This document shows, in pieces, positions 999-56,103 of a DNA stretch of 64,000 nt. The translations under genes and the position numbers were made by a program. The DNA lies in NCBI RefSeq assembly GCF_001590965.1, contig NZ_BCTW01000013.1:62001-126000 (forward strand). The letters run 5' to 3'. Position 1 is the first letter of the stretch. Each line of letters starts with the position of its first letter. The stretch comes from Novosphingobium lentum NBRC 107847 (GTDB lineage: Bacteria > Pseudomonadota > Alphaproteobacteria > Sphingomonadales > Sphingomonadaceae). The notes beneath the pieces are model-generated. The model saw nothing but the letters and a program-made list of their open reading frames with translations. It was not told where the DNA came from and did no database searches.

Positions 999-1967
999 TC
1001 AGTGCGCCAGCGCCTCGCCGAACCGGGCAAGCAGCGCAGCCGCGCGATCGGCCCGCAAGTGTTCGAGCCCCTTCGGCAAGGTGATCTCGGGGTGGAGCGT
1101 TACGAACTGCGCGGTGATGGCCTCGGACTTCAGCCCGCTGGCCGACAGCGCGAGCACGAGCCGGGCAAGCTGGCTTTCGGTCATCGCGAACACGGCGGTG
1201 TCACGGTCGAGGCCCGAGCCGATCGCCAGGCCGGTGGCGAACAGGCTGACGCCCGCATTGTCGATCGCCAGCGCGCCTTCAGCCTGGCCGCCCATGCCGC
1301 GAATCAGCCCGTCCATCAGCGCGATCCGGCTGTTGCGGCCGTCCTGCCGCGCACGCAGCGCCAGTTCGGCCTGGTGTGCCTGCGCATCGGCATCGGGGGT
1401 ATCGCCAAGGTAGGACCGCATCGTCAGCATGACGATGTGAAACAGATCGCCGGGCAGTTCGTTCAGCGGCAACTGCATCCGCCGGACCGACTGGCCGAAC
1501 CGGGCCTGCGCTGCCAGCAGCTTCATCGCCGAGGCGGCCGTGGCGGGATCCTGCGACGCGATCATCGTCTGCAGCAGCGGTGACAGCACCGGATCGAGCG
1601 CCAGCCTGACGTGCAGGCGTTCCGCGACGTGCCATTCCAGCGCCAGCGCATGGGCGTGGGCCAGCAGCGCGGGGACGCCGAGGAAGGCCGTGCCCAGATC
1701 CTCGCTCGCTTCGTGCGCCCAGGCCTGCGGTTCCTCATGTCCGGCGACTTCGGCGAGCGCAACGATCAGTTGCCGCGCCAGATCCATCATCATCCCGCGC
1801 ACGCGCGCGATGATCTCGTCGCTGAACACCGACTGGTCGTCATTGGCCAGCAGGTGCCGCAGGATCGGGCCGGTGTTGGCCTGCGCGCGGTCCGCGACGG
1901 CCAGCTCCTCGCCCAGCAAGTCCTCGATCGCGCCCGGGCCTGCATTCGAATATGCCATTTGTGCCAT
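999..1967 (-). CDS. Uncharacterised 322-aa alpha-helical protein
   Basis: A soluble, Ala/Leu-rich protein of 322 residues with no signal peptide or TM segment. I do not recognise a named family; the length and helical character recall DUF2336-type regulators of alphaproteobacteria, but the match is not firm. It sits between a membrane protein gene (10-base gap) and the kinase-like gene (1-base gap), so it is translated in the same operon and probably serves the same pathway. A CtrA-like motif (1992-2006) lies 25-40 bases upstream of the start, inside the end of the preceding gene. The start ATG at 1967 is followed by MAQMAYSNAG, and no better start is visible. Confidence 0.65.
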   Translation of the reverse strand: MAQMAYSNAGPGAIEDLLGEELAVADRAQANTGPILRHLLANDDQSVFSDEIIARVRGMMMDLARQLIVALAEVAGHEEPQAWAHEASEDLGTAFLGVPALLAHAHALALEWHVAERLHVRLALDPVLSPLLQTMIASQDPATAASAMKLLAAQARFGQSVRRMQLPLNELPGDLFHIVMLTMRSYLGDTPDADAQAHQAELALRARQDGRNSRIALMDGLIRGMGGQAEGALAIDNAGVSLFATGLAIGSGLDRDTAVFAMTESQLARLVLALSASGLKSEAITAQFVTLHPEITLPKGLEHLRADRAAALLARFGEALAH

Positions 1968-1977
1968 GATCGCCGGT

Positions 1978-3216
1978 CTAGCCGTCGTTGGTTAAGGGCG
2001 GGTTAGGAACGCGCAGGATGCCCATCGCCAGCATCAGCGCCAGCGCCAGAATGAGAATGATCGAGGCCCGCAACACCATGTCGAACGGCAACAGGAAGCT
2101 CGCCAGCGCCAGTGTCCAGCCCAGCAGCAGGCGATCGCCGAGCCACGCGATCCGGGCTTTGTCGGCCATCACCAGCGGCAGCAGGCGCAGCAGCAGCAGC
2201 AGCACGACCGGCGGAAAAAACGTGATCGTCCAGGGCAGGTCGGGTGTCGTCGGCGAAGCGCTGCGCCACGCGGCCAGCCACACCAGCAATCCGTCGACCA
2301 GCAGCAGGAACGCGCCATCGGCCAGCCCGCCACCGCGTCCGCCGACCAGTGAATCGCGCTCGATCCGCGTGAGGATCGCGGCGCCGCGATACAGCGTCCA
2401 GCCCACGCCGATCACCGCGAAGCCCGCTGTCGGTGACCACAGCCAGCCCGCGCCGAAGCCGAGCAGCGACACCGTGACCGCCGCCGCCGCCACCAGCCAC
2501 GGCCGGGTTCCGGCATGGAGCAGCGATGGCCCCAGATGCAGCACCAGCCACGCCGCCAGCAGCTCGCCCGGCGTGCGGCTTTGCCCCGTGGCGGCATGCA
2601 GCCGCAGCCACGCCGGTTCGGCGGCATGGGCATCCGCTTCGCTGCGCAGCACCTGCCAGCGGCCCTGGCCCAGCAGCGCGACCGGCACGCCGCGCTGGGC
2701 GACCCCGCCCTGCACCGCGAGCCGCAGCAGCGCCGAAAACGGGTTCCAGTCGCCGGGAAGTTCGGCAAACTGCGCCGCGATCCGCCCCGGCAGGCGCATC
2801 GCGCCCGCGTCCGAACTGTTGAGGTCGATCCGTTCGAAACCCGCGGCCAGCCCGGCCTCGACCGGGAAGGTCAGCACGCCCTGCTTGTCCGCCAGCAGCG
2901 CCAGCGCATCGTCGGGCAGCGCGAGCAGCCCGTCGGCGAACACGAACAGATCGTCATCGGCCCCCACCAGCGCCGAGATCTTCTGCGGCGAGGACAGCAC
3001 ATGGAACTGCGCGCCGCGCGCCTCGGCAGCGTGCTGGAGCGACACCAGTTCCCCGGTCAGCGCTTCGGCCGCGCACAGGATCCGGGTGCATCCCAGCGCC
3101 AGTGCCAGCCCCAGTTGATGGCGCGCGATGGAGCGGCCGCAGATCGGCAGGTAGCCGTGCGGTTCGGTCGATTCTCCCGAAGCCGGATCCACCAGCGATA
3201 ACAGCGCGACCCGCAA
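1978..3216 (-). CDS. Membrane protein with nucleotidyltransferase-like N-terminus and degenerate CDP-alcohol-transferase-like C-terminus
   Basis: 412 residues. The first ~200 residues are soluble and begin MRVALLSLVD..GYLPICGRSIARHQLGLALALGC, which has the layout of a sugar/inositol nucleotidyltransferase (phosphate-loop-like start, then a helix). The last ~200 residues hold about five or six hydrophobic segments. The overall design resembles bifunctional inositol-phosphate cytidylyltransferase/CDP-alcohol phosphatidyltransferases, but the hallmark DxxDGxxAR...GxxxDxxxD is absent: the aligned stretch reads TLYRGAAILTRIERDSLVGG. This family assignment is inference. It heads the tight three-gene run that ends with the kinase-like gene. 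Confidence 0.55.
   Translation of the reverse strand: MRVALLSLVDPASGESTEPHGYLPICGRSIARHQLGLALALGCTRILCAAEALTGELVSLQHAAEARGAQFHVLSSPQKISALVGADDDLFVFADGLLALPDDALALLADKQGVLTFPVEAGLAAGFERIDLNSSDAGAMRLPGRIAAQFAELPGDWNPFSALLRLAVQGGVAQRGVPVALLGQGRWQVLRSEADAHAAEPAWLRLHAATGQSRTPGELLAAWLVLHLGPSLLHAGTRPWLVAAAAVTVSLLGFGAGWLWSPTAGFAVIGVGWTLYRGAAILTRIERDSLVGGRGGGLADGAFLLLVDGLLVWLAAWRSASPTTPDLPWTITFFPPVVLLLLLRLLPLVMADKARIAWLGDRLLLGWTLALASFLLPFDMVLRASIILILALALMLAMGILRVPNPPLTNDG
1992..2006 (-). promoter_or_regulatory. CtrA-like box TTAA-N7-TTAG
   Basis: On the plus strand the sequence is TTAA, seven bases, TTAG; read on the minus strand it is CTAA-N7-TTAACC, close to the CtrA consensus TTAA-N7-TTAAC. It ends 25 bases upstream of the start at 1967 but lies within the last codons of the preceding gene, so it could be coincidental. 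Confidence 0.3.
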
Positions 3217-3331: not shown

Positions 3332-3640
3332 TCAGGCGTCGGGCGGGATCAGGTCCAGCAGGAAGTGCTCGATGCGGCGGGTCACGCCCGGTTCGCCGGG
3401 GACACCGGACAGCGCTTCGTCGGCCAGCCCGATCAACTTTTCGGCATGGAAGCTGGCCGCCAGCCCTTTCAGCCGCATCGCCGCGACCTGCCAGTTTCCG
3501 TCGCATCGCGCGCGGCGCATCAGATCGAGCTGACGTTCCGCGCTTTCGATAAATGCTCCGCGCAATTCCCGGAACAGCGCGGCATCGTTGCCGGCGGCTG
3601 CCGCGAGATTTGCGTCCAGGGCTTCGCCTTCATACGCCAT
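3332..3640 (-). CDS. HPt-domain-like protein without the active histidine
   Basis: 102 residues, all helical, the usual size of a free-standing histidine phosphotransfer (HPt) protein. The HPt signature A-H-x-L-K-G-x-x-x-x-x-G-A-x-x-L is recognisable as AMRLKGLAASFHAEKL: the Leu-Lys-Gly and Ala-x-x-Leu positions are intact, but the phospho-accepting His is Met and the glycine is His. Unless the His in the glycine position has taken over, it cannot relay phosphate in the normal way and more likely binds a receiver or kinase without catalysis. It is the first gene of the leftward cluster, 115 bases upstream of the membrane protein gene, and is divergent from the TipN-like gene. Confidence 0.65.
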   Translation of the reverse strand: MAYEGEALDANLAAAAGNDAALFRELRGAFIESAERQLDLMRRARCDGNWQVAAMRLKGLAASFHAEKLIGLADEALSGVPGEPGVTRRIEHFLLDLIPPDA

Positions 3641-3664
3641 ATCGCACGGGCTAGACCAGGAAGG

Positions 3665-3682
3665 TTAAGGTGGGGTTTAAAC
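3665..3682. promoter_or_regulatory. Possible CtrA-like site between divergent genes
   Basis: TTAA, eight bases, TTAAAC lies in the 71-base gap between the HPt-like gene (start 3640, minus) and the TipN-like gene (start 3712, plus). Spacing is one base longer than the TTAA-N7-TTAA consensus, so the call is weak. Position between two divergent starts is what one expects of a shared operator. Confidence 0.3.
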
Positions 3683-3711
3683 AATCGCCGTTGCCGTGGT
3701 AGTGTGCCTGC

Positions 3712-6423
3712 ATGAATGGGGGACCACGGATCATTCCGATCGAGCCCGGCCAGCCGGACAACGCGGCGGTCGAGGATTTGCGCGCCTTTGCGGCGGACGC
3801 TCCGCTGCTGTTGCGACCCGAAGACGAATCGTGGGACGACGAATCGCCCACCCCGCAGCGCGACATGCTGGCCTGGCTGGCGCCGGTTGGCGTGGCCATC
3901 ATCATCGCTGCGTGGACCGGCTTCTTCATCTGGGCGAACCTTGGCGCGATGCAGGCGGGCGCGACGCCAGCCGTGTGGGCCCAGTGGATCGGCCAGTGGT
4001 CGGTCCCGGTCCTGCTGTGCCTGACCGCGCTGCTGGTCGCGATGCGCAACAGCCGCCGCGAAGCAGGCCGGTTTGCCGATGCGGGACAATCGCTGCGCGC
4101 GGAATCCGAAGCGCTCGAACGGCGGCTGGTCTCGGTCAACACCGAACTGTCGCTCGCGCGTGACTTCCTCGCCGCGCAAGGCCGTGATCTGGAAGCGCTG
4201 GGCCGCATCGCGGTCGATCGCCTGTCGGGCAGCGCGGATCGGCTGCAGGCGCTGATCGTCGACAACGGAGCGCAAGTTTCCAGCATCGGCGACGTGTCGG
4301 TCAACGCGCTCGACAACATGGAAAAGCTGCGCGGGCACCTGCCGGTCATCGCCAATTCGGTTCGCGACGTGACCAACACCATCGCCAGCGCCGGACGCAC
4401 CGCGCACGTGCAGCTGGAAGACCTCGTCACCGGATTCCACCGGCTCAACGAATTCGGCGTCGCCAGCGAGCGGCAGGTCGAATCGCTGCGCGGCGTGGTG
4501 AACGAGGCGCTGGCCGAATTTACGCTTCAGGCCGACCAGCTCGACACGATCACCACCGCGCGGTTCGCCGCTTTGGCGAGTGAAGGCGAAGCCCACCGCC
4601 AGAACCTTGACCAGATCGAGATTGCCGCGCTGGCCGGAATCCGCACCCGCTCCGCCTCGCTCGAGCGCGAGCTGGCAGCCCACCGCGAAAGCACCGAAGC
4701 GGGCGAAAACAGCGCCTACGAAGCGCTGCGCGCGCGGCTTGTCGCGCTGCGCGAGGAAAGCAATTCCATCGCCCGCGCCATTGCCGGCGGTGAGAGCGAG
4801 GCGCTTAACGCGTGGACCGAACGCGCGGCATCGCATCGCGAAACGCTGCGCCACGCGCTGGAGGGCTTTGCGACCGACCACGAGATGGCGATCGCTGCCG
4901 CCTCAACCCGGCTCGGCGCCTTCGAGCAGGCGGCGCGCGGGATCGGTTCGACGCTGGACGACCATCTGCGCCGGATCGACGAGGAATTTGCCACCCGCCG
5001 CCAGACCGCCGAAGATGCCGCCGGGGAGCAGGACCGGTTGCTGACGGAGCGACTGGACGCGGTGGACCGCGCGATCACGCAACGCCACCAGGCGATGACC
5101 GCCACGGGCGTGTCCGCGTCCGATACGATGACTCAGCGGCTGGGCGAACTCGATCGCCTGATCGCACAGCAGCGCACGCACCAGACCGAACAGGCCGATG
5201 CGCTGGCCACGCGGTTCGAGGCGCTGAGCGAGCGGGTGAACGCGTTCTCCGCCGTGTTGCGCGCCTCGGGCGAACAGGGCGCGGCCACCGCCGCAGCCGT
5301 GGACCGGGCGATGGCCATGCTCAATTCCCGCCTGGTCGAGAGCGGCGAGGCGCTGGCCGGAACCGACGGCCAAGTCGCCGACCTGACCGATTCGGCCGTG
5401 CGGCTGCTCGAACTGATCCAGGCCAGCAGCGACCATACCCGGATCAAGCTGCCCGAAGCCGTGAAGGAAGCCGAAGGCGGCCTGCGGGGCATCGAAGACC
5501 GCGTGTTCATGTTGCGCGACACGCTGAAGGATGCCGGCGAGCGCGGACATGCGCTGTCGGAACACGTTCTCGCCTCGCGCAACGACATGGCCGGGGCGCT
5601 GGCCGACGTGGGCTCGCTCCACGGCGAATTCACCGCGCGCACGCAGGACCAGCAAAACCAGCTCGCGGCGTTGCGCGAAACGCTCGCCGCCGCCCGCAGC
5701 CAGAGCGAGCAGCTGGCAGGAGACATCCAGGCGAGCCTTGCCGGTGCGATTGCCCAGCTTTCGGGCGCGGTGGAAAACGTCGGCGCCAGCCTGCGCCATG
5801 GCACCGCCAGCGAGATCGAGGCCATCGCCAGCCAGCTGGGCGATCACAGCAGCGCGGCCATCGCCAAAGTGCTGCAGGGTCGTGGCGCGGAGCTGGTGCT
5901 GCGGCTGGAGGAAGCGATCGATCGCGCGGCCGAAGCCGGGCGCGACACCACGGTGCAACTGCGCGACCAACTGGCCAAAGTCGACGAACTGGCCGGCAAT
6001 CTGGAAAACCGCGTCGATCGCGCGCGCGAACGCGCCGAAGACCGCGTCGACAACGATTTCGCCCGGCGCGCCGCGCTGATCACCGAATCGCTGAAATCGA
6101 CCGCGATCGACATTGCCCGCGCGCTCTCCAGCGACGTTTCCGAAACCGCCTGGGCTTCGTACTTGCGCGGCGATCGCGGCATCTTCACGCGCCGCGCGGT
6201 GAGCCTGCTGGAAAGCGGCGAAGCGCGGATCGTGGCGCAACACTACGACAGCGACGAGGATTTCCGCTTGAACGTGAACCGCTACATCCACGATTTCGAG
6301 GCGATGCTGCGCCAGCTGCTGTCGACGCGCGACGGCAATGCGCTGGGGGTCACGCTGCTGTCGTCGGACATGGGCAAGCTCTATGTCGTGCTGGCCCAAG
6401 GGATCGAGCGCCTGCGCGCCTGA
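3712..6423 (+). CDS. Large two-TM coiled-coil protein, TipN-like polarity factor candidate
   Basis: 903 residues. An acidic, proline-rich cytoplasmic start (1-50) is followed by two hydrophobic segments (about 53-76 and 94-111), then some 700 residues of heptad-rich, Ala/Glu/Arg/Gln-rich helix typical of a long coiled coil. A compact C-terminal domain (about 805-903, from TAWASYLRGDRGIFTRRAV to the end) is not coiled coil. Length, two N-terminal TM segments and long coiled coil match the architecture of Caulobacter TipN, the cell-pole marker, and the related growth-pole-ring proteins of Rhizobiales. This is architecture, not proven homology. Alternative: a generic coiled-coil membrane scaffold. 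It is divergently transcribed from the HPt-like gene with a possible CtrA-like site between. Confidence 0.6.
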   Translation: MNGGPRIIPIEPGQPDNAAVEDLRAFAADAPLLLRPEDESWDDESPTPQRDMLAWLAPVGVAIIIAAWTGFFIWANLGAMQAGATPAVWAQWIGQWSVPVLLCLTALLVAMRNSRREAGRFADAGQSLRAESEALERRLVSVNTELSLARDFLAAQGRDLEALGRIAVDRLSGSADRLQALIVDNGAQVSSIGDVSVNALDNMEKLRGHLPVIANSVRDVTNTIASAGRTAHVQLEDLVTGFHRLNEFGVASERQVESLRGVVNEALAEFTLQADQLDTITTARFAALASEGEAHRQNLDQIEIAALAGIRTRSASLERELAAHRESTEAGENSAYEALRARLVALREESNSIARAIAGGESEALNAWTERAASHRETLRHALEGFATDHEMAIAAASTRLGAFEQAARGIGSTLDDHLRRIDEEFATRRQTAEDAAGEQDRLLTERLDAVDRAITQRHQAMTATGVSASDTMTQRLGELDRLIAQQRTHQTEQADALATRFEALSERVNAFSAVLRASGEQGAATAAAVDRAMAMLNSRLVESGEALAGTDGQVADLTDSAVRLLELIQASSDHTRIKLPEAVKEAEGGLRGIEDRVFMLRDTLKDAGERGHALSEHVLASRNDMAGALADVGSLHGEFTARTQDQQNQLAALRETLAAARSQSEQLAGDIQASLAGAIAQLSGAVENVGASLRHGTASEIEAIASQLGDHSSAAIAKVLQGRGAELVLRLEEAIDRAAEAGRDTTVQLRDQLAKVDELAGNLENRVDRARERAEDRVDNDFARRAALITESLKSTAIDIARALSSDVSETAWASYLRGDRGIFTRRAVSLLESGEARIVAQHYDSDEDFRLNVNRYIHDFEAMLRQLLSTRDGNALGVTLLSSDMGKLYVVLAQGIERLRA

Positions 6424-6551: not shown

Positions 6552-7484
6552 ATGCCGATGATCGAAGCCCGCGACGGGATGCGGCTTTATGCCAAGACCT
6601 GGGGTGACGGCCCGCCCGTCGTGCTCATCCACGGCTGGCCGCTGTCGGGCGACAGCTGGGACCCCATCACCCACGCGCTGGCCGAGGATGGCTTCAAGGC
6701 GATCGCTTATGACCGCCGGGGCTTCGGCCGGTCCGACCAGCCGTCGGGCGGATATGACTACGATACCTTCGCCGATGATCTGGCCGACGTCATGGCGGCC
6801 ATGGGTGCTACGCGCGACGTCAGCCTCGTCGGCTTCTCGATGGGTGGCGGCGAGATCGCGCGGTACATGTCGCGCCACGGCGGGAAGGGCGTGGCGCGCG
6901 TGGCGCTGGTATCCTCGGTGGTGCCTTACATGCTCCAGACCGACGACAATCCCCATGGCGTGCCGCAAGCGACGTTCGACCAGATGACCGAGGGCATGCT
7001 GACCGATCGCGCCAGATTCATGACCGGCTTCTTCAAGGACTTCTACGGCGTGGGCATGCTGTCCAGCCCGGTCAGCGACGAAGTGCTGCAGCTGTCGTGG
7101 GCCACGGCGATGCAAGCTGGTCTGCGCCCGACGCTGGCCGCCGCCAAGGCGTTTGCCACCACCGATTTCCGGCCCGATCTGGCAAGTTTTACCGTGCCCA
7201 CGCTGATCATTCACGGCACGTCGGACAAGACCGTCCCGATCGACGCCACCGCGCGTGAAGTGGTCAAGACGGTGCAACAGGCCACGCTGATCGAATATCC
7301 GGGCGAACCGCACGGCGTGTTCGCCACGCAGACAGAACGCCTGACCCGCGACCTGCTGGCGTTCATCGGTGGAGATGATCGCAGCGTGTTCAGCGGGCTG
7401 GACGATGCAACGCAGGCCGATCGGCAGGACATCGTCGATGAAGTGACGCGCGAAACGATGGCCACGTCTGCGTCGATGATCTGA
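6552..7484 (+). CDS. Alpha/beta hydrolase, non-heme chloroperoxidase-like
   Basis: 310 residues. The core is the esterase/chloroperoxidase-type fold: oxyanion motif LIHGWPLSG near residue 21, nucleophile elbow GFSMGG near residue 95, acid in HGTSDKTVP and catalytic His in EPHGVF near residue 257. Such proteins hydrolyse esters and can form peracids; the physiological substrate cannot be read from sequence. About 35 residues extend beyond the usual C-terminus and are not conserved in the family. The ATG at 6552 was chosen because family members start MPMIEARDG; the open frame continues upstream only as a shadow of the preceding gene. Confidence 0.85.
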   Translation: MPMIEARDGMRLYAKTWGDGPPVVLIHGWPLSGDSWDPITHALAEDGFKAIAYDRRGFGRSDQPSGGYDYDTFADDLADVMAAMGATRDVSLVGFSMGGGEIARYMSRHGGKGVARVALVSSVVPYMLQTDDNPHGVPQATFDQMTEGMLTDRARFMTGFFKDFYGVGMLSSPVSDEVLQLSWATAMQAGLRPTLAAAKAFATTDFRPDLASFTVPTLIIHGTSDKTVPIDATAREVVKTVQQATLIEYPGEPHGVFATQTERLTRDLLAFIGGDDRSVFSGLDDATQADRQDIVDEVTRETMATSASMI

Positions 7485-7522
7485 CACGTCGCCATGGGTC
7501 TGAGCGATGACCTTCCCATCAT

Positions 7523-7603
7523 CCGCTCATCCCGAGCGAAGTTGAGGGACGTTGTGCATGTCGATAGCGCGCGGACCTGTCTCGACTCGCGCGACATGAG
7601 CGG
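7523..7603. repeat. Palindromic intergenic element
   Basis: Outer arms CCGCTCAT and ATGAGCGG (8 bases) enclose imperfect inner complementarity, including CATGTCG/CGACATG. It sits in the 240-base gap between the hydrolase and the stress protein and belongs to the dispersed palindromes with GAGCGAAGTTGAGGGAC-type cores. Confidence 0.5.
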
Positions 7604-7724
7604 GGCCGAGTGTGAGCAGCGCTTTGGAGTAAACCACCAGACAACGCCGCACCCGGCAGGGAACAACCCCTGCCCCGCCCCGTTGGTCGAACATCTCTCC
7701 CGTTCATACAAAGGGCAATTCGCC

Positions 7725-8207
7725 ATGAAATATTCCGACGGCCAACCCGCAGAAATGAAAGAAAAGTTCTGGAAGGCGATGACGCATTCGCCGTTCGTCA
7801 TGCTGCAACTCGACCATGATCCCGATTCCGCCGCGCCGATGACCGCGCAGCTCGACAAGGATGCCGACAGCGCGATCTGGTTCTTCACCAGCAAGGACGG
7901 GCGTTATGCCAGCGGCGGCGCGGCGACCGCCAACTTCGAGAGCAAGGGCCACGACGTGTTTGCGCGCTTTGCCGGCACGCTGGTCGAGGAAACCGACCGC
8001 GCCCGGCTCGACAAGCAGTGGAACAACTTCGTCGAGGCCTGGTATCCCGGCGGCAAGACCGACCCCAACCTGCTGTTCCTGCGCATGGATCTGGGCGACG
8101 CCTCGATCTGGTCGGGCGACATGGGCCTGCTCGCCACCGCCAAGATGGCACTGGGCATGAGCGTGCGCGAGGATGCCTCGGGCCAGTACGTCGAGACTGC
8201 GCTGTAA
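7725..8207 (+). CDS. General stress protein 26-like, pyridoxamine 5'-phosphate oxidase fold
   Basis: 160 residues with the split-barrel FMN-binding layout of the general stress protein 26 family: WKAMTHSPFVMLQL at the start, IWFFTSKDGRYASGG in the middle and the long barrel strand ending LDKQWNNFVEAWYPGGKTDPNLLFLRMDLGDASIW. These proteins bind FMN or FAD and are usually made under stress; the reaction is not established. ATG at 7725 fits family starts (MKYSDGQPAEMKEKFW) and has AAGGGC upstream. A longer frame from 7494 would run through a palindromic repeat and was rejected. A strong hairpin terminator follows. Confidence 0.85.
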   Translation: MKYSDGQPAEMKEKFWKAMTHSPFVMLQLDHDPDSAAPMTAQLDKDADSAIWFFTSKDGRYASGGAATANFESKGHDVFARFAGTLVEETDRARLDKQWNNFVEAWYPGGKTDPNLLFLRMDLGDASIWSGDMGLLATAKMALGMSVREDASGQYVETAL

Positions 8208-8232
8208 GCATTTCACGACACGACAACGAAGA

Positions 8233-8265
8233 GGGCCGCTCCCCATTTCGGGAAGCGGCCCTTTT
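8233..8265 (+). terminator. Rho-independent terminator after the stress protein
   Basis: GGGCCGCT pairs with AGCGGCCC (8 bp, extended by three G-C pairs around an A-C mismatch), loop ATTTC, followed by TTTT. It lies 26 bases after the stop at 8207 and just before the convergent permease gene. Confidence 0.85.
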
Positions 8266-8285
8266 CTACGTCATGGGCAAGCGGC

Positions 8286-9872
8286 TCAAGGGATCGGAGG
8301 GACCGACGACGGCGGAATGTCCGCATCGGTTTCATGGACCTCCACCAACCCGCGACCGACGTGGCTGTGGCTCTTGCTGTAGAGGAAGTAGACGGCCAGC
8401 CCCAGGATCGCCCAGCCGGCGAACAGTTCCAGCGTGTACCACGACAGGCTGAAGAACAGGTAGAGGCAGCCCAGCACCGCCACCGGCGCGACGATCATCA
8501 CTGCCGGGGTGCGGAACGGGCGCGTGCGGTTGGGATCGGTCTTGCGCAGGACCACCACCGCGATGGCGACCATCGCAAAGGCGAACAGTGTGCCCGAGTT
8601 CGAAATGTCCGCCAGCGCGCCCACCGGGAACAGCGCGGCGAAAATCGCCACGAAGATGCCGGTGATGATCGTGACCACGTACGGCGTATTGTAGCGCGGG
8701 TGGACCCGGCTCAGCACTTCGGGAAGCAGACCGTCGCGGCTCATCACGAAGAAGATGCGCGTCTGGCCGAACATCATCATCAGCACCACCGAAGGCAGCG
8801 CCAGACCGGCGGCGAGGCCGATCAGGTTGCCGATCTGGCGCCAGCCGATCTCGCGCATGGTCCAGGCCAGCGCTTCCTTCGAACAGACGACGGCCTGGTT
8901 CTGGATGGTCGAGCAGGCGGCAACCAGCTCGGTACTGCCCGGCGCGAGGCCGTGGCCGGTGCCGTCAATCAGCGGCTGTGCCCCGACCGAGCCGATGACT
9001 CCGGCGGCGACCAGGATATAGAACACGGTGCAGATCGCAAGGCTGCCGATCAGGCCGATCGGCATGTTGCGTTGCGGGTTCTTGGTTTCCTCGGCTGCGG
9101 TCGAAACCGCGTCGAACCCGACATAGGCGAAGAAGATCGAGGCGGCCGCCGCCGAAATACCCTTGAAGCCCAACGGCGCGAATGGATGGAAGTTGTGCGA
9201 TTGCATCACCGGCAACGCCAGAATCACGAACACGGTCAGCGCGGTGATCTTGATCATCACCAGGATCGCGTTGATGTACGCGCTTTCCTTGGTGCCGATC
9301 ACCAGCAGCCAGGTGACCAGCAGCGCGATGATCGCGGCGGGCAGGTTGATATAGCCGCCGGCCGCCATGGCCGTGACGATGGCGTCGCTCTGCTCGGCAC
9401 CGAACGCCACCTTGATGTGCGCGATCAGCGCATCGGCGTTGACGATCGTGGAGGGCAGCGAAACGCCCAGATACTCTCGCAACAGGCCCACGAAATAGCC
9501 CGACCAGCCAACCGAAACCGCGCCCGCCGCCACGGCATATTCCAGCACCAGCGCCCAGCCGACCATCCACGCCAGCATCTCGCCCATCACGGCGTAGCTG
9601 TAAGTGTAGGCGGAACCCGAAACCGGGACCATCGAGCTCATTTCAGCGTAGCACAAGGCGGCCACCGCGCAGACGAAGCCGGCGATGATAAAGCTGATCA
9701 TCATGCCCGGCCCGGCCTTTTGCGCCGCTTCGGCGGTCAGCACGAAGATGCCCGTGCCGATGATCGCGCCCACCCCCAGCATGGTAAGCTGGAATGCGCC
9801 GAGCGATCGATGCAGCGATTTCTTCTCGGCTGTCGCCAGAATGGCATCGAGCGGTTTGACGCGACCGAACAT
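8286..9872 (-). CDS. Cationic-amino-acid-type permease, APC superfamily
   Basis: 528 residues with about 12 TM segments plus hydrophobic extensions, belonging to the cationic amino acid transporter/YfnA branch of APC transporters. The motif GVGAIIGTGIFVLT at residues about 32-46 is the substrate-binding TM1 loop; FFAYVGFDAVSTAAEETKNP is the conserved TM6-to-loop region. It should import an amino acid with protons; the specific substrate is unknown. Start chosen at ATG 9872 (MFGRVKPLDAILA, preceded by AGGAG), because the 48 extra residues of the longer frame do not resemble the family. Single gene, convergent with the stress protein. Confidence 0.88.
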   Translation of the reverse strand: MFGRVKPLDAILATAEKKSLHRSLGAFQLTMLGVGAIIGTGIFVLTAEAAQKAGPGMMISFIIAGFVCAVAALCYAEMSSMVPVSGSAYTYSYAVMGEMLAWMVGWALVLEYAVAAGAVSVGWSGYFVGLLREYLGVSLPSTIVNADALIAHIKVAFGAEQSDAIVTAMAAGGYINLPAAIIALLVTWLLVIGTKESAYINAILVMIKITALTVFVILALPVMQSHNFHPFAPLGFKGISAAAASIFFAYVGFDAVSTAAEETKNPQRNMPIGLIGSLAICTVFYILVAAGVIGSVGAQPLIDGTGHGLAPGSTELVAACSTIQNQAVVCSKEALAWTMREIGWRQIGNLIGLAAGLALPSVVLMMMFGQTRIFFVMSRDGLLPEVLSRVHPRYNTPYVVTIITGIFVAIFAALFPVGALADISNSGTLFAFAMVAIAVVVLRKTDPNRTRPFRTPAVMIVAPVAVLGCLYLFFSLSWYTLELFAGWAILGLAVYFLYSKSHSHVGRGLVEVHETDADIPPSSVPPIP

Positions 9873-10116
9873 GTATTTCTCCTGCCAGGACCGGAGCGCC
9901 TGGGCGACCCCCACCAAAAAGGTTGCTCCGGTAACCAGCTTGTAACCGCCGAAGCTAGCGCCAAGCAGACTTGGCGCAAGGCCTTTTTCCCCAGCCTTGC
10001 GCGAGTCCCAGCGCATGGCAGCCCTTGCCTCGGTATCGGTCGGGTGCGGTCAGGTGTCGTTCGGGCCACGGTCGCAATGCTTGCGCGGCCCGGATGAACC
10101 TCTAAAACCCCCGGCC

Positions 10117-56087: not shown

Positions 56088-56103
56088 TTAACCGGTTCTT
56101 AAC
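56088..56103 (+). promoter_or_regulatory. CtrA box TTAA-N7-TTAAC
   Basis: TTAACCGGTTCTTAAC matches the CtrA consensus exactly (TTAA, seven bases, TTAAC). It is 140 bases upstream of the Flp pilin start. Flp/pilA genes are CtrA targets in Caulobacter. Confidence 0.65.

Follow-up and report, generated by a model that had tools for sequence, protein, structure and literature searches.

A candidate TipN/GPR-family pole scaffold in Novosphingobium lentum and its divergent HPt-like neighbour

The closest described systems are membrane-anchored proteins of the growing pole. GPR of Agrobacterium tumefaciens (Atu1348; 2,115 aa) and RgsE of Sinorhizobium meliloti (SMc00190; 2,089 aa) have two N-terminal transmembrane (TM) segments and a long continuous helix with many PF01442 domains. 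In GPR, loss of the last 10 residues spoils complementation and keeps ring formation, whereas a C-terminal deletion of 221 residues abolishes it (PMC8262873). A deletion of 332 residues, which removes the tail as well, keeps the rings and more function than the 221-residue deletion (PMC8262873), so the effect of the latter is not simply loss of the tail domain. TipN of Caulobacter crescentus also has two TM segments and is 882 aa long in passages of PMC13170164 that call GPR and TipN 'analogous'; a passage of PMC8546619 describes GPR as 'with similarity to' TipN. Distant RgsE homologues are placed in Emcibacterales and Rhodospirillales in sections of Krol et al. (PMC7327166) that name no Sphingomonadales; the paper nowhere mentions TipN (0 occurrences).

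We analysed a window of 64,000 nucleotides from Novosphingobium lentum NBRC 107847 (contig NZ_BCTW01000013.1, positions 62,001 to 126,000), to which all coordinates refer. It includes a gene (3712..6423, + strand, ATG start), hereafter the scaffold gene, encoding 903 aa. Its product shares the two N-terminal TM segments and the long helix with GPR and RgsE, but is far shorter, has no PF01442 match at E ≤ 1 and contains only 13 prolines in all, where GPR has a proline-rich stretch. In size (903 against 882 aa) and in its two TM segments it resembles TipN. The ORF is the single match within its own genome, and searches of Pfam and NCBIfam with the protein gave nothing above cut-off.

Hydropathy bore out the two TM segments claimed in a first-pass annotation of this DNA, at about residues 53-75 (3868..3936, +) and 91-111 (3982..4044, +), and the hairpin can be aligned across the rows of our alignment A4. 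The basic stretch RNSRREAGR follows, so the bulk of the protein is predicted to be cytoplasmic. Past the hairpin, conservation in Sphingomonadales marks a region at about residues 112-260 (4045..4491, +) and an internal stretch at residues 541-570 (5332..5421, +). The same annotation had proposed a coiled coil of about 700 residues. A long helix of about 670 residues is indeed present, nearly free of prolines (2 in the 667 residues 113-779; 4048..6048, +) and strongly amphipathic (the periodicity peaks at a power of 9.47, where the top of 60 shuffles reached 2.65). Its period of 3.58, however, falls between the heptad (3.50) and 11-residue (3.67) registers, and the region is therefore better termed an extended amphipathic helix whose register is mixed. 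The hairpin would hold the protein in the inner membrane, and the helix, about 100 nm if fully extended, would reach into the cytoplasm and, judging from GPR, may oligomerise.

The best conserved part is the C-terminal helical domain (residues about 779-903; 6046..6420, +), with 49 invariant columns over the last 155 residues in 79 Sphingomonadales rows. A well-defined C-terminal domain had been annotated before; it is real, but its size is nearer 125 than 100 residues. An AF2 model from 102 rows of our widest profile (A6) has eight helices (mean pLDDT 77.6, pTM 0.75) and weakens between residues 20 and 60 of its 125. The model from the 79 similar Sphingomonadales rows that make up profile A1 was poorer (pLDDT 64.3). 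Foldseek returned no match at E ≤ 0.001 with either model (best 1.9 with the A6-based one), and the VIA comparison of the A6-based model gave a best Z of 4.5, with none at or above 5. Hence, the modelled tail matches no PDB fold convincingly, a result that speaks neither for nor against any known fold. The only PDB sequence matches with A1, SRA1 chains over the helical part (best E 0.028), were treated as chance.

Relatives of the protein are encoded in 495 candidate stretches of the genome collection, which argues against a chance finding. The best 80 of these, to which our gene-order counts apply, show 42-57% identity in the best segment, most of them across the whole query; the gene itself (L001) was left out of the homolog set. 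Sphingomonadales relatives are conserved along most or all of their length. Beyond this order it is the tail domain that can be followed. A1 matches it in 104 of 289 genomes of the class and A6 in 116, mostly once per genome, which leaves 173 without a match to the broadest profile. The domain is usually single copy (110/115 genomes) and ends at most 20 residues from the protein end in 51 of the 53 loci read out; the exceptions are L164, where it lies inside a 930-aa ORF, 412 residues before the end, and L155 (42 before the end). Far from setting this protein apart, as had been supposed, the domain marks a whole family present in many Alphaproteobacteria.

Homology tests are independent only where the profile lacks the group under test. 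Profiles A1 and A3 contain no rows of family f58, and A3 none of Caulobacteraceae; our independent tests are thus the class search with A1 and the searches of f58 and of Caulobacteraceae with A3. A5 (two f58 and seven Caulobacteraceae rows; L155 and L157 dropped for weak tails) and A6 (more of the tested groups; L150 and L153 dropped) include rows of the tested groups, and consequently their counts measure spread. Each of the three f58 genomes within the class sample was matched by A1 (E 3.8e-20, 2.2e-13 and 1.8e-9) and by A3 (E 2.8e-35, 7.9e-29 and 2.0e-17). A5 matches 59 of 60 genomes in f58 itself and 146 of 149 in the order it belongs to, which we infer to be Hyphomicrobiales; genomes of this order carry contigs 100% identical to Terrarubrum, Acuticoccus and Hartmannibacter plasmids. 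Several tail bearers have the architecture of GPR, for example L152 (2743 aa, two TM regions, 13 PF01442 stretches), L116 (2115 aa, 7 stretches) and L153 (7 stretches). A proline-rich stretch lies at 1896-2005 in L166 and 1891-2000 in L190, counted from mechanical ORF starts; that of GPR was published at 1,890-2,000 (PMC8262873). The GPR-architecture proteins examined carry the same tail domain near the C-terminus as the scaffold.

In Caulobacteraceae, A3 finds the tail domain in 28 of 40 genomes at E ≤ 3e-6, down to 1.5e-16, whereas the narrower A1 gave just two matches (E 0.48); in these genomes the domain has diverged strongly (branch 1.81). We infer the family label itself, since the DivJ scores of its genomes (f52) all stay below the curated cut-off, 1000 bits, the best being 970. 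One protein, L145, is taken as TipN from its family, size and architecture: 885 aa, two TM regions, a long helix of period 3.60 and, as in the scaffold, a C-terminal domain recognisable by profile. Unlike the scaffold, the TipN candidates begin with about 90-145 proline-rich residues ahead of the TM hairpin, and their tail is much diverged. Because mechanical ORF starts were used, TM positions, lengths and gaps at other loci may err by tens of residues.

These matches bear on whether the resemblance to TipN is convergent, a long helix and two TM segments being easy to evolve. The N-terminal and helical parts lack sequence matches outside the family: an N-terminal profile run against 20 members from other genomes matched only L133, of the same family, and N-terminal similarity further out is too weak alone to show homology. 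The shared tail, in contrast, was found in both groups by profiles free of them, is usually single copy and sits at the protein end. The A3 matches largely refute convergence, which we regard as highly improbable. The earlier guess of a TipN or growth-pole-ring protein, made from architecture, thus finds support in a homologous tail carried by GPR-architecture proteins and by TipN-sized two-TM proteins of Caulobacteraceae. Profile homology to these candidates supports assigning the scaffold gene to the TipN/GPR(RgsE) family as its Sphingomonadales ortholog.

What the family does is a separate question. Its common job could be envelope tethering (Tol-Pal, lipid transport, peptidoglycan) rather than pole marking, and the sphingomonad protein may then be located where the cell divides or all along the envelope. 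Consistent with this, sections of PMC7327166 report that S. meliloti RgsE interacts with TolQ, RgsA and RgsS, a passage of PMC8262873 describes apolipoprotein-like helices in GPR, and the downstream gene belongs to one cluster in 13 of the 53 sampled loci, MlaD/MCE-type in the member scanned. However, the same sections of PMC7327166 report RgsE and GPR at the growing pole and not at the septum, and TipN is called the marker of the new pole in part of PMC10127582. We therefore consider envelope tethering unlikely as the common job. We think it probable, on the whole, that its product is the TipN/GPR(RgsE) ortholog of Sphingomonadales, a scaffold of the new or growing pole whose divergently encoded partners would act by binding; its polar localisation and cell-cycle role would follow from this kinship. 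The C-terminal helical domain would be the conserved docking part for work at that pole. The shared tail makes TipN, GPR and the sphingomonad scaffold testable as one family, and since it sits at the protein end, where the 10-residue truncation harms GPR, it offers a small part to mutate.

Divergent from the scaffold gene, 71 bp away, lies a gene for an HPt-like protein of 102 aa (P0002; 3332..3640, -), in which Met55 replaces the phosphoacceptor His. P0002 itself matches the HPt profile weakly (E 0.032, below the curated cut-off), but 15 of 24 members of its family match PF01627 at E ≤ 0.1, and the family aligns to intact HPt proteins with hhalign (E 1.1e-5, probability 82%). It differs from these in lacking the His in 68 of 69 Sphingomonadales proteins (kept in 1/69). 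Three genes follow on the same strand: a 412-aa protein of uncertain start codon (1978..3216, -), weakly NTP-transferase-like in 3 of 25 members; a 322-aa protein (999..1967, -), possibly distantly DUF2336-like (1 of 26 members); and a histidine-kinase-like protein (P0005; 2..1030, -), which runs past the window edge and whose full-length counterpart in L235 has 464 aa. P0005 lacks the phosphoacceptor His (Pro253) and retains its HATPase domain (PF02518, E 6e-22); Pro takes the place of the HisKA His in 72 of 75 kinase-like relatives. DivL is a pseudo-histidine kinase with Tyr at this position. P0005 resembles DivL-type proteins in its retained HATPase domain and its replaced His, with Pro instead of Tyr. 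As the phosphoacceptor residues are lost in both P0002 and P0005, they most likely act by binding and not by phosphotransfer, for example by keeping a kinase or a response regulator bound there.

The divergent placement of the HPt-like gene had been read as a hint of a cell-cycle or polarity module, a hint that gains support from other families and orders. Outside the bacterial family to which the window belongs, an HPt gene is divergent from the scaffold gene in 15 of 49 loci, at 77-995 bp as measured to mechanical ORF starts. All 15 proteins match PF01627 and their His is invariant; the count leaves out L147|12235, some 4 kb from the anchor (HPt profile E 0.0022), and L124, where the upstream neighbour is a hybrid kinase bearing a fused HPt domain. 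P0002 is kin to such genuine HPt proteins, encoded in pairs with the scaffold gene elsewhere. The iterated HPt profile used for these counts had taken in Sphingomonadaceae rows; the strict profile and hhalign searches were separate from it.

Yet a common promoter could be all that joins the HPt and kinase genes to the scaffold gene, with no physical or signalling link. Unlinked genes often share a bidirectional promoter. An HPt gene next to the scaffold gene, as seen here, was found neither in the seven Caulobacteraceae loci nor in 27 of the 42 further loci outside the window's bacterial family (L124 among the 27); most of the other families sampled showed none, and ten Erythrobacteraceae-type loci drop the HPt-like gene yet keep the next genes. 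The remaining three genes of the operon, searched as profiles in 20 loci of other genomes, gave only general kinase matches (L116 and L124). Against mere promoter sharing stand the recurrence of the pairing in several families, the hybrid kinase of L124, and the strict HPt profile (ORFs of at least 90 aa, E ≤ 0.01), which gave 20 hits in 792,529 bases, 19 of them next to the scaffold gene. We see mere sharing as a serious contender, at somewhat below an even chance. The recurring HPt neighbour is a candidate link between pole marking and cell-cycle signalling, and Sphingomonadales are a natural experiment in which phosphate chemistry was lost and the genes mostly kept. More tentatively, TipN and GPR may be one ancient alphaproteobacterial scaffold defined by its tail, with HPt as ancestral partner and a phosphorelay positioned at the pole; Sphingomonadales would have turned it into a CtrA-timed, binding-only pseudo-phosphorelay, from which some Erythrobacteraceae dropped HPt.

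CtrA probably times transcription of the scaffold gene and of the divergent operon through their shared promoter (3641..3711; 71 bp, with 67-72 bp in 58 of 69 loci), as its motif content suggests. A CtrA-box-like site, TTAA-N7-TTTA, lies at 3665..3679 (+), and TTAA-N7-TTWA occurs in the shared promoter of 66 of 69 Sphingomonadales loci (shuffle mean 0.08), the second half-site being TTTA in 51/69 and exact TTAA in 15/69. GANTC sites give no signal in this promoter (13/69 against a shuffle mean of 16.5). Outside the window's bacterial family, an exact box lies within 300 bp upstream in only 1 of 49 loci, and the promoter link is hence claimed for Sphingomonadales only. In four further loci of the window's bacterial family the box is exact once, has TTTA once and TTTC once, and is absent once. 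A conserved gTGnTA at 3696..3701 (+) may be the -10 element of the scaffold gene.

The open reading frame at window positions 3712-6423 (+) starts with ATG and encodes a scaffold protein of 903 residues, for which hydropathy indicates two transmembrane (TM) segments, roughly residues 53-75 and 91-111. The sequence RNSRREAGR directly follows the second segment, and the bulk of the protein is therefore predicted to be cytoplasmic. The first-pass annotation had called this bulk a coiled coil. A long helix is indeed present: residues 113-779 include two prolines, and their hydrophobic periodicity has a power of 9.47, against a maximum of 2.65 in 60 shuffles. The heptad register did not hold, since the period of 3.58 is that of a mixed-register amphipathic helix. 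The period is 3.60 in a Caulobacter candidate (L145, see below), and 3.62 and 3.66 in two proteins with the architecture of GPR. The gene is single in its 4.4-Mb genome, where the sole match is the gene itself; this genome also encodes PopZ.

The genome collection contains 495 candidate relatives, of which we analysed the best 80. These have 42-57% identity in their best segment and come mostly from Novosphingobium, Erythrobacter, Qipengyuania and their kin, with some unplaced MAGs. Conservation concentrates in residues 91-260 (after the TM hairpin), 541-570 and 745-903, and is highest in the tail domain (779-903). A tail profile made from Sphingomonadales only (A1, 79 rows) matches 104 of the 289 genomes sampled across Alphaproteobacteria. 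Wider profiles match 115 of them at E ≤ 0.01 (A3, with exactly one match in 110) and 116 at E ≤ 0.001 (A6, 102 rows, with none in 173). The domain ends at most 20 residues from the protein end in 51 of the 53 loci read out around family members. The exceptions are L155, where it stops 42 residues before the end, and L164, whose frame continues for 412 residues. In the latter (7275-10064 (+), 930 residues) a multi-TM transporter-like stretch follows the tail, either because the two have been fused or because a stop codon has been lost. Among 20 members from other genomes, at the threshold used 14 have two separated N-terminal TM peaks, five have one or overlapping peaks, and one has none (L119, which starts near a contig end); a hairpin motif containing LPHE occurs in nine of the 20 aligned N-termini. 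Short forms also exist. L157 (6847-7938 (-), 364 residues) has little helix between its two TM segments and its tail, which is diverged (E = 1.6e-7), and tail matches in genome family f18 also lie on short frames (330-377 residues). Such forms may represent the family's minimal unit. A quick tree was built from 102 tails (56 unlabelled rows uncounted, 42 of 99 inner branches open); in it, each of three labelled groups is split by one branch from the other two, with SH-aLRT supports of 100 for Sphingomonadaceae, 100 for Caulobacteraceae and 96 for Hyphomicrobiales. The Caulobacteraceae branch is long (1.81).

The tail links the scaffold protein to proteins with the architecture of GPR and RgsE. 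Neither A1 nor A3 contains any row from genome family f58, and both profiles match its three genomes in the class sample (A1: 3.8e-20, 2.2e-13 and 1.8e-9; A3: 2.8e-35, 7.9e-29 and 2.0e-17). Profile A5, which contains two f58 rows, matches 59 of 60 f58 genomes (one by a fragment only) and 146 of the 149 genomes of its order. We take this order to be Hyphomicrobiales, bearing in mind that GTDB and NCBI orders may differ. Three of its genomes have contigs 100% identical to plasmids of Terrarubrum, Acuticoccus and Hartmannibacter; the Terrarubrum record places it in Hyphomicrobiales, the Agrobacterium record gives the same order, and the other two genera presumably belong there too. Tail-matching frames in this order reach 2,940 residues, many being around 2,000. 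In L152 (2743 residues), 13 PF01442 stretches accompany two TM regions, and in L153 seven accompany one clear TM peak; L116, from another family, has 2115 residues and seven stretches. A proline-rich stretch lies at 1896-2005 in L166 and at 1891-2000 in L190. GPR is described as a protein of 2,115 residues with two N-terminal TM domains, PF01442 across about 75% of its length and a proline-rich region at 1,890-2,000 (PMC8262873). The same study reports that loss of the last 10 residues of GPR leaves polar foci in place but impairs complementation, that removing 221 residues causes complete failure, and that removing 332 allows rings and partial function (PMC8262873). As the longer deletion is partly functional, the defect of the 221-residue deletion is, on this account, not simply tail loss. 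The last 10 residues should correspond to the end of the last helix, because the tail reaches the C-terminus in relatives. RgsE (2,089 residues), a homolog of GPR, is reported at the growing pole, interacting with RgsA, RgsS and TolQ (PMC7327166).

The scaffold gene is followed by putative lipid-transport genes in L131, L152, L154, L155, L161, L165, L166, L168-L170 and L188-L190. An MlaD/MCE-type cluster occurs in 13 of 53 loci (typed from one scanned member, L190; PF02470, PF11887), and an ABC-transport auxiliary lipoprotein cluster in 12 of 53 (typed from L131; PF03886). A lipid-transport operon beside an apolipoprotein-like scaffold is suggestive.

The link to TipN passes through family f52, taken as Caulobacteraceae from its DivJ matches. 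The DivJ model NF050805 matches 32 of 40 f52 genomes at E ≤ 1e-120, and the best (G322, 970 bits) covers nearly the whole model. None of the 40 reaches the curated cut-off of 1000 bits, attained among 14 control genomes by Caulobacter vibrioides only. A1 gives just two matches at E = 0.48 in these genomes; A3, built without f52 sequence, detects the tail in 28 of the 40 at E ≤ 3e-6, the strongest match reaching 1.5e-16. The G322 member, L145, has 885 residues; its N-terminus is rich in proline, its TM peaks lie at 145 and 180, and its tail spans 774-881. TipN is described as 882 residues with disordered termini (PMC13170164), and we infer that L145 is TipN. GPR has been called 'with similarity to' TipN (PMC8546619) or 'analogous' (PMC13170164). 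Searches of CC-licensed PubMed Central listings gave no paper on the shared tail domain or the HPt pairing, which is a weak negative. By analogy with work on GPR, RgsE and TipN, the scaffold would be oligomeric, membrane-anchored and located at the new pole, its tail recruiting partners.

Opposite the scaffold gene lies a minus-strand operon encoding an HPt-like protein (3332-3640), proteins of 412 (1978-3216) and 322 residues (999-1967) and a kinase-like protein (2-1030). The divergent arrangement, which had been read as a hint of a cell-cycle or polarity module, proved conserved: among the best 80 of 495 relatives, the full order occurs in 63 of 73 loci with sufficient flank, and the individual genes in 68/78, 75/75, 73/74 and 73/73. 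The HPt-like gene is missing from ten loci with flank, eight of them from Qipengyuania and one each from Altericroceibacterium and Erythrobacter. In these Erythrobacteraceae-type loci (L048, L049, L050, L067, L073-L077 and L080) only 182-268 bp separate the scaffold and 412-residue genes; other Qipengyuania retain the gene. The phosphoacceptors are lost. The HPt histidine column has His in one of 69 proteins (Met in 30, Leu in 23), and the HisKA column has Pro in 72 of 75 kinase-like proteins; the window's kinase-like protein keeps its HATPase domain (PF02518, 6e-22). The 412-residue family shows weak NTP-transferase similarity (3/25 members, best 0.0018), and the 322-residue family a DUF2336 match in one of 26 members (4e-5). 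A citrate synthase gene (PF00285, 3e-139) adjoins the kinase-like gene just left of the window (L235, 1578-2864 (+)). The citrate synthase CitA of C. crescentus was reported as a cell-cycle regulator from a tipN cpdR double-mutant screen (PMC7083601); the adjacency may be coincidence.

The 53 loci comprise four of the window's family and 49 outside it. A divergent HPt gene lies upstream of the scaffold gene in 15 of these 49 (gap 77-995 bp to mechanical ORF starts): 11 of the 15 loci from the order of genome G238 and four from other families. All 15 proteins match PF01627 with an invariant His. Their strict profile retrieves 20 ORFs at E ≤ 0.01 in 792,529 bases: these 15, three Sphingomonadaceae HPt-like genes, a fused one (L124) and one elsewhere (L147, E = 0.0022). 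L124 (3226-5844 (+)) is a hybrid kinase (HisKA, HATPase, receiver, HPt) encoded in the same direction as a 1630-residue family member and 78 bp upstream of it. Profiles of HPt-like and intact HPt proteins align (E = 1.1e-5, probability 82%). None of the seven Caulobacteraceae loci showed an HPt neighbour, nor did most of the other families sampled. Since the pairing recurs outside Sphingomonadales with an intact His, it is either older than this order or of repeated origin. In Sphingomonadales, the HPt-like and kinase-like proteins may act as binding partners without phosphotransfer.

The shared 71-bp promoter region (3641-3711) has a conserved core, gGTTAA-N4-gGgTTTA, with a CtrA-box-like site at 3665-3679. 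The CtrA consensus is TTAA-N7-TTAA, reported to be conserved across Alphaproteobacteria (PMC9437464). TTAA-N7-TTWA occurs in 66 of 69 promoter regions (letter-shuffle mean 0.08, maximum 2), as the exact box in 15 and with TTTA in 51; the remaining three have TTTC. Four additional loci from the window's family contribute one exact box, one TTTA and one TTTC, and the fourth lacks a box. Outside this family, a box lies within 300 bp in one of 49 loci. About 17 nt downstream of the box, on the scaffold side, gTGnTA is a putative -10 element of the scaffold gene. We predict that CtrA controls the scaffold promoter, and it would time expression from the shared region. The pattern occurs at two places in the 64-kb window (0.02 expected); the second site, at 56088-56102 (TTAACCGGTTCTTAA), matches on both strands.
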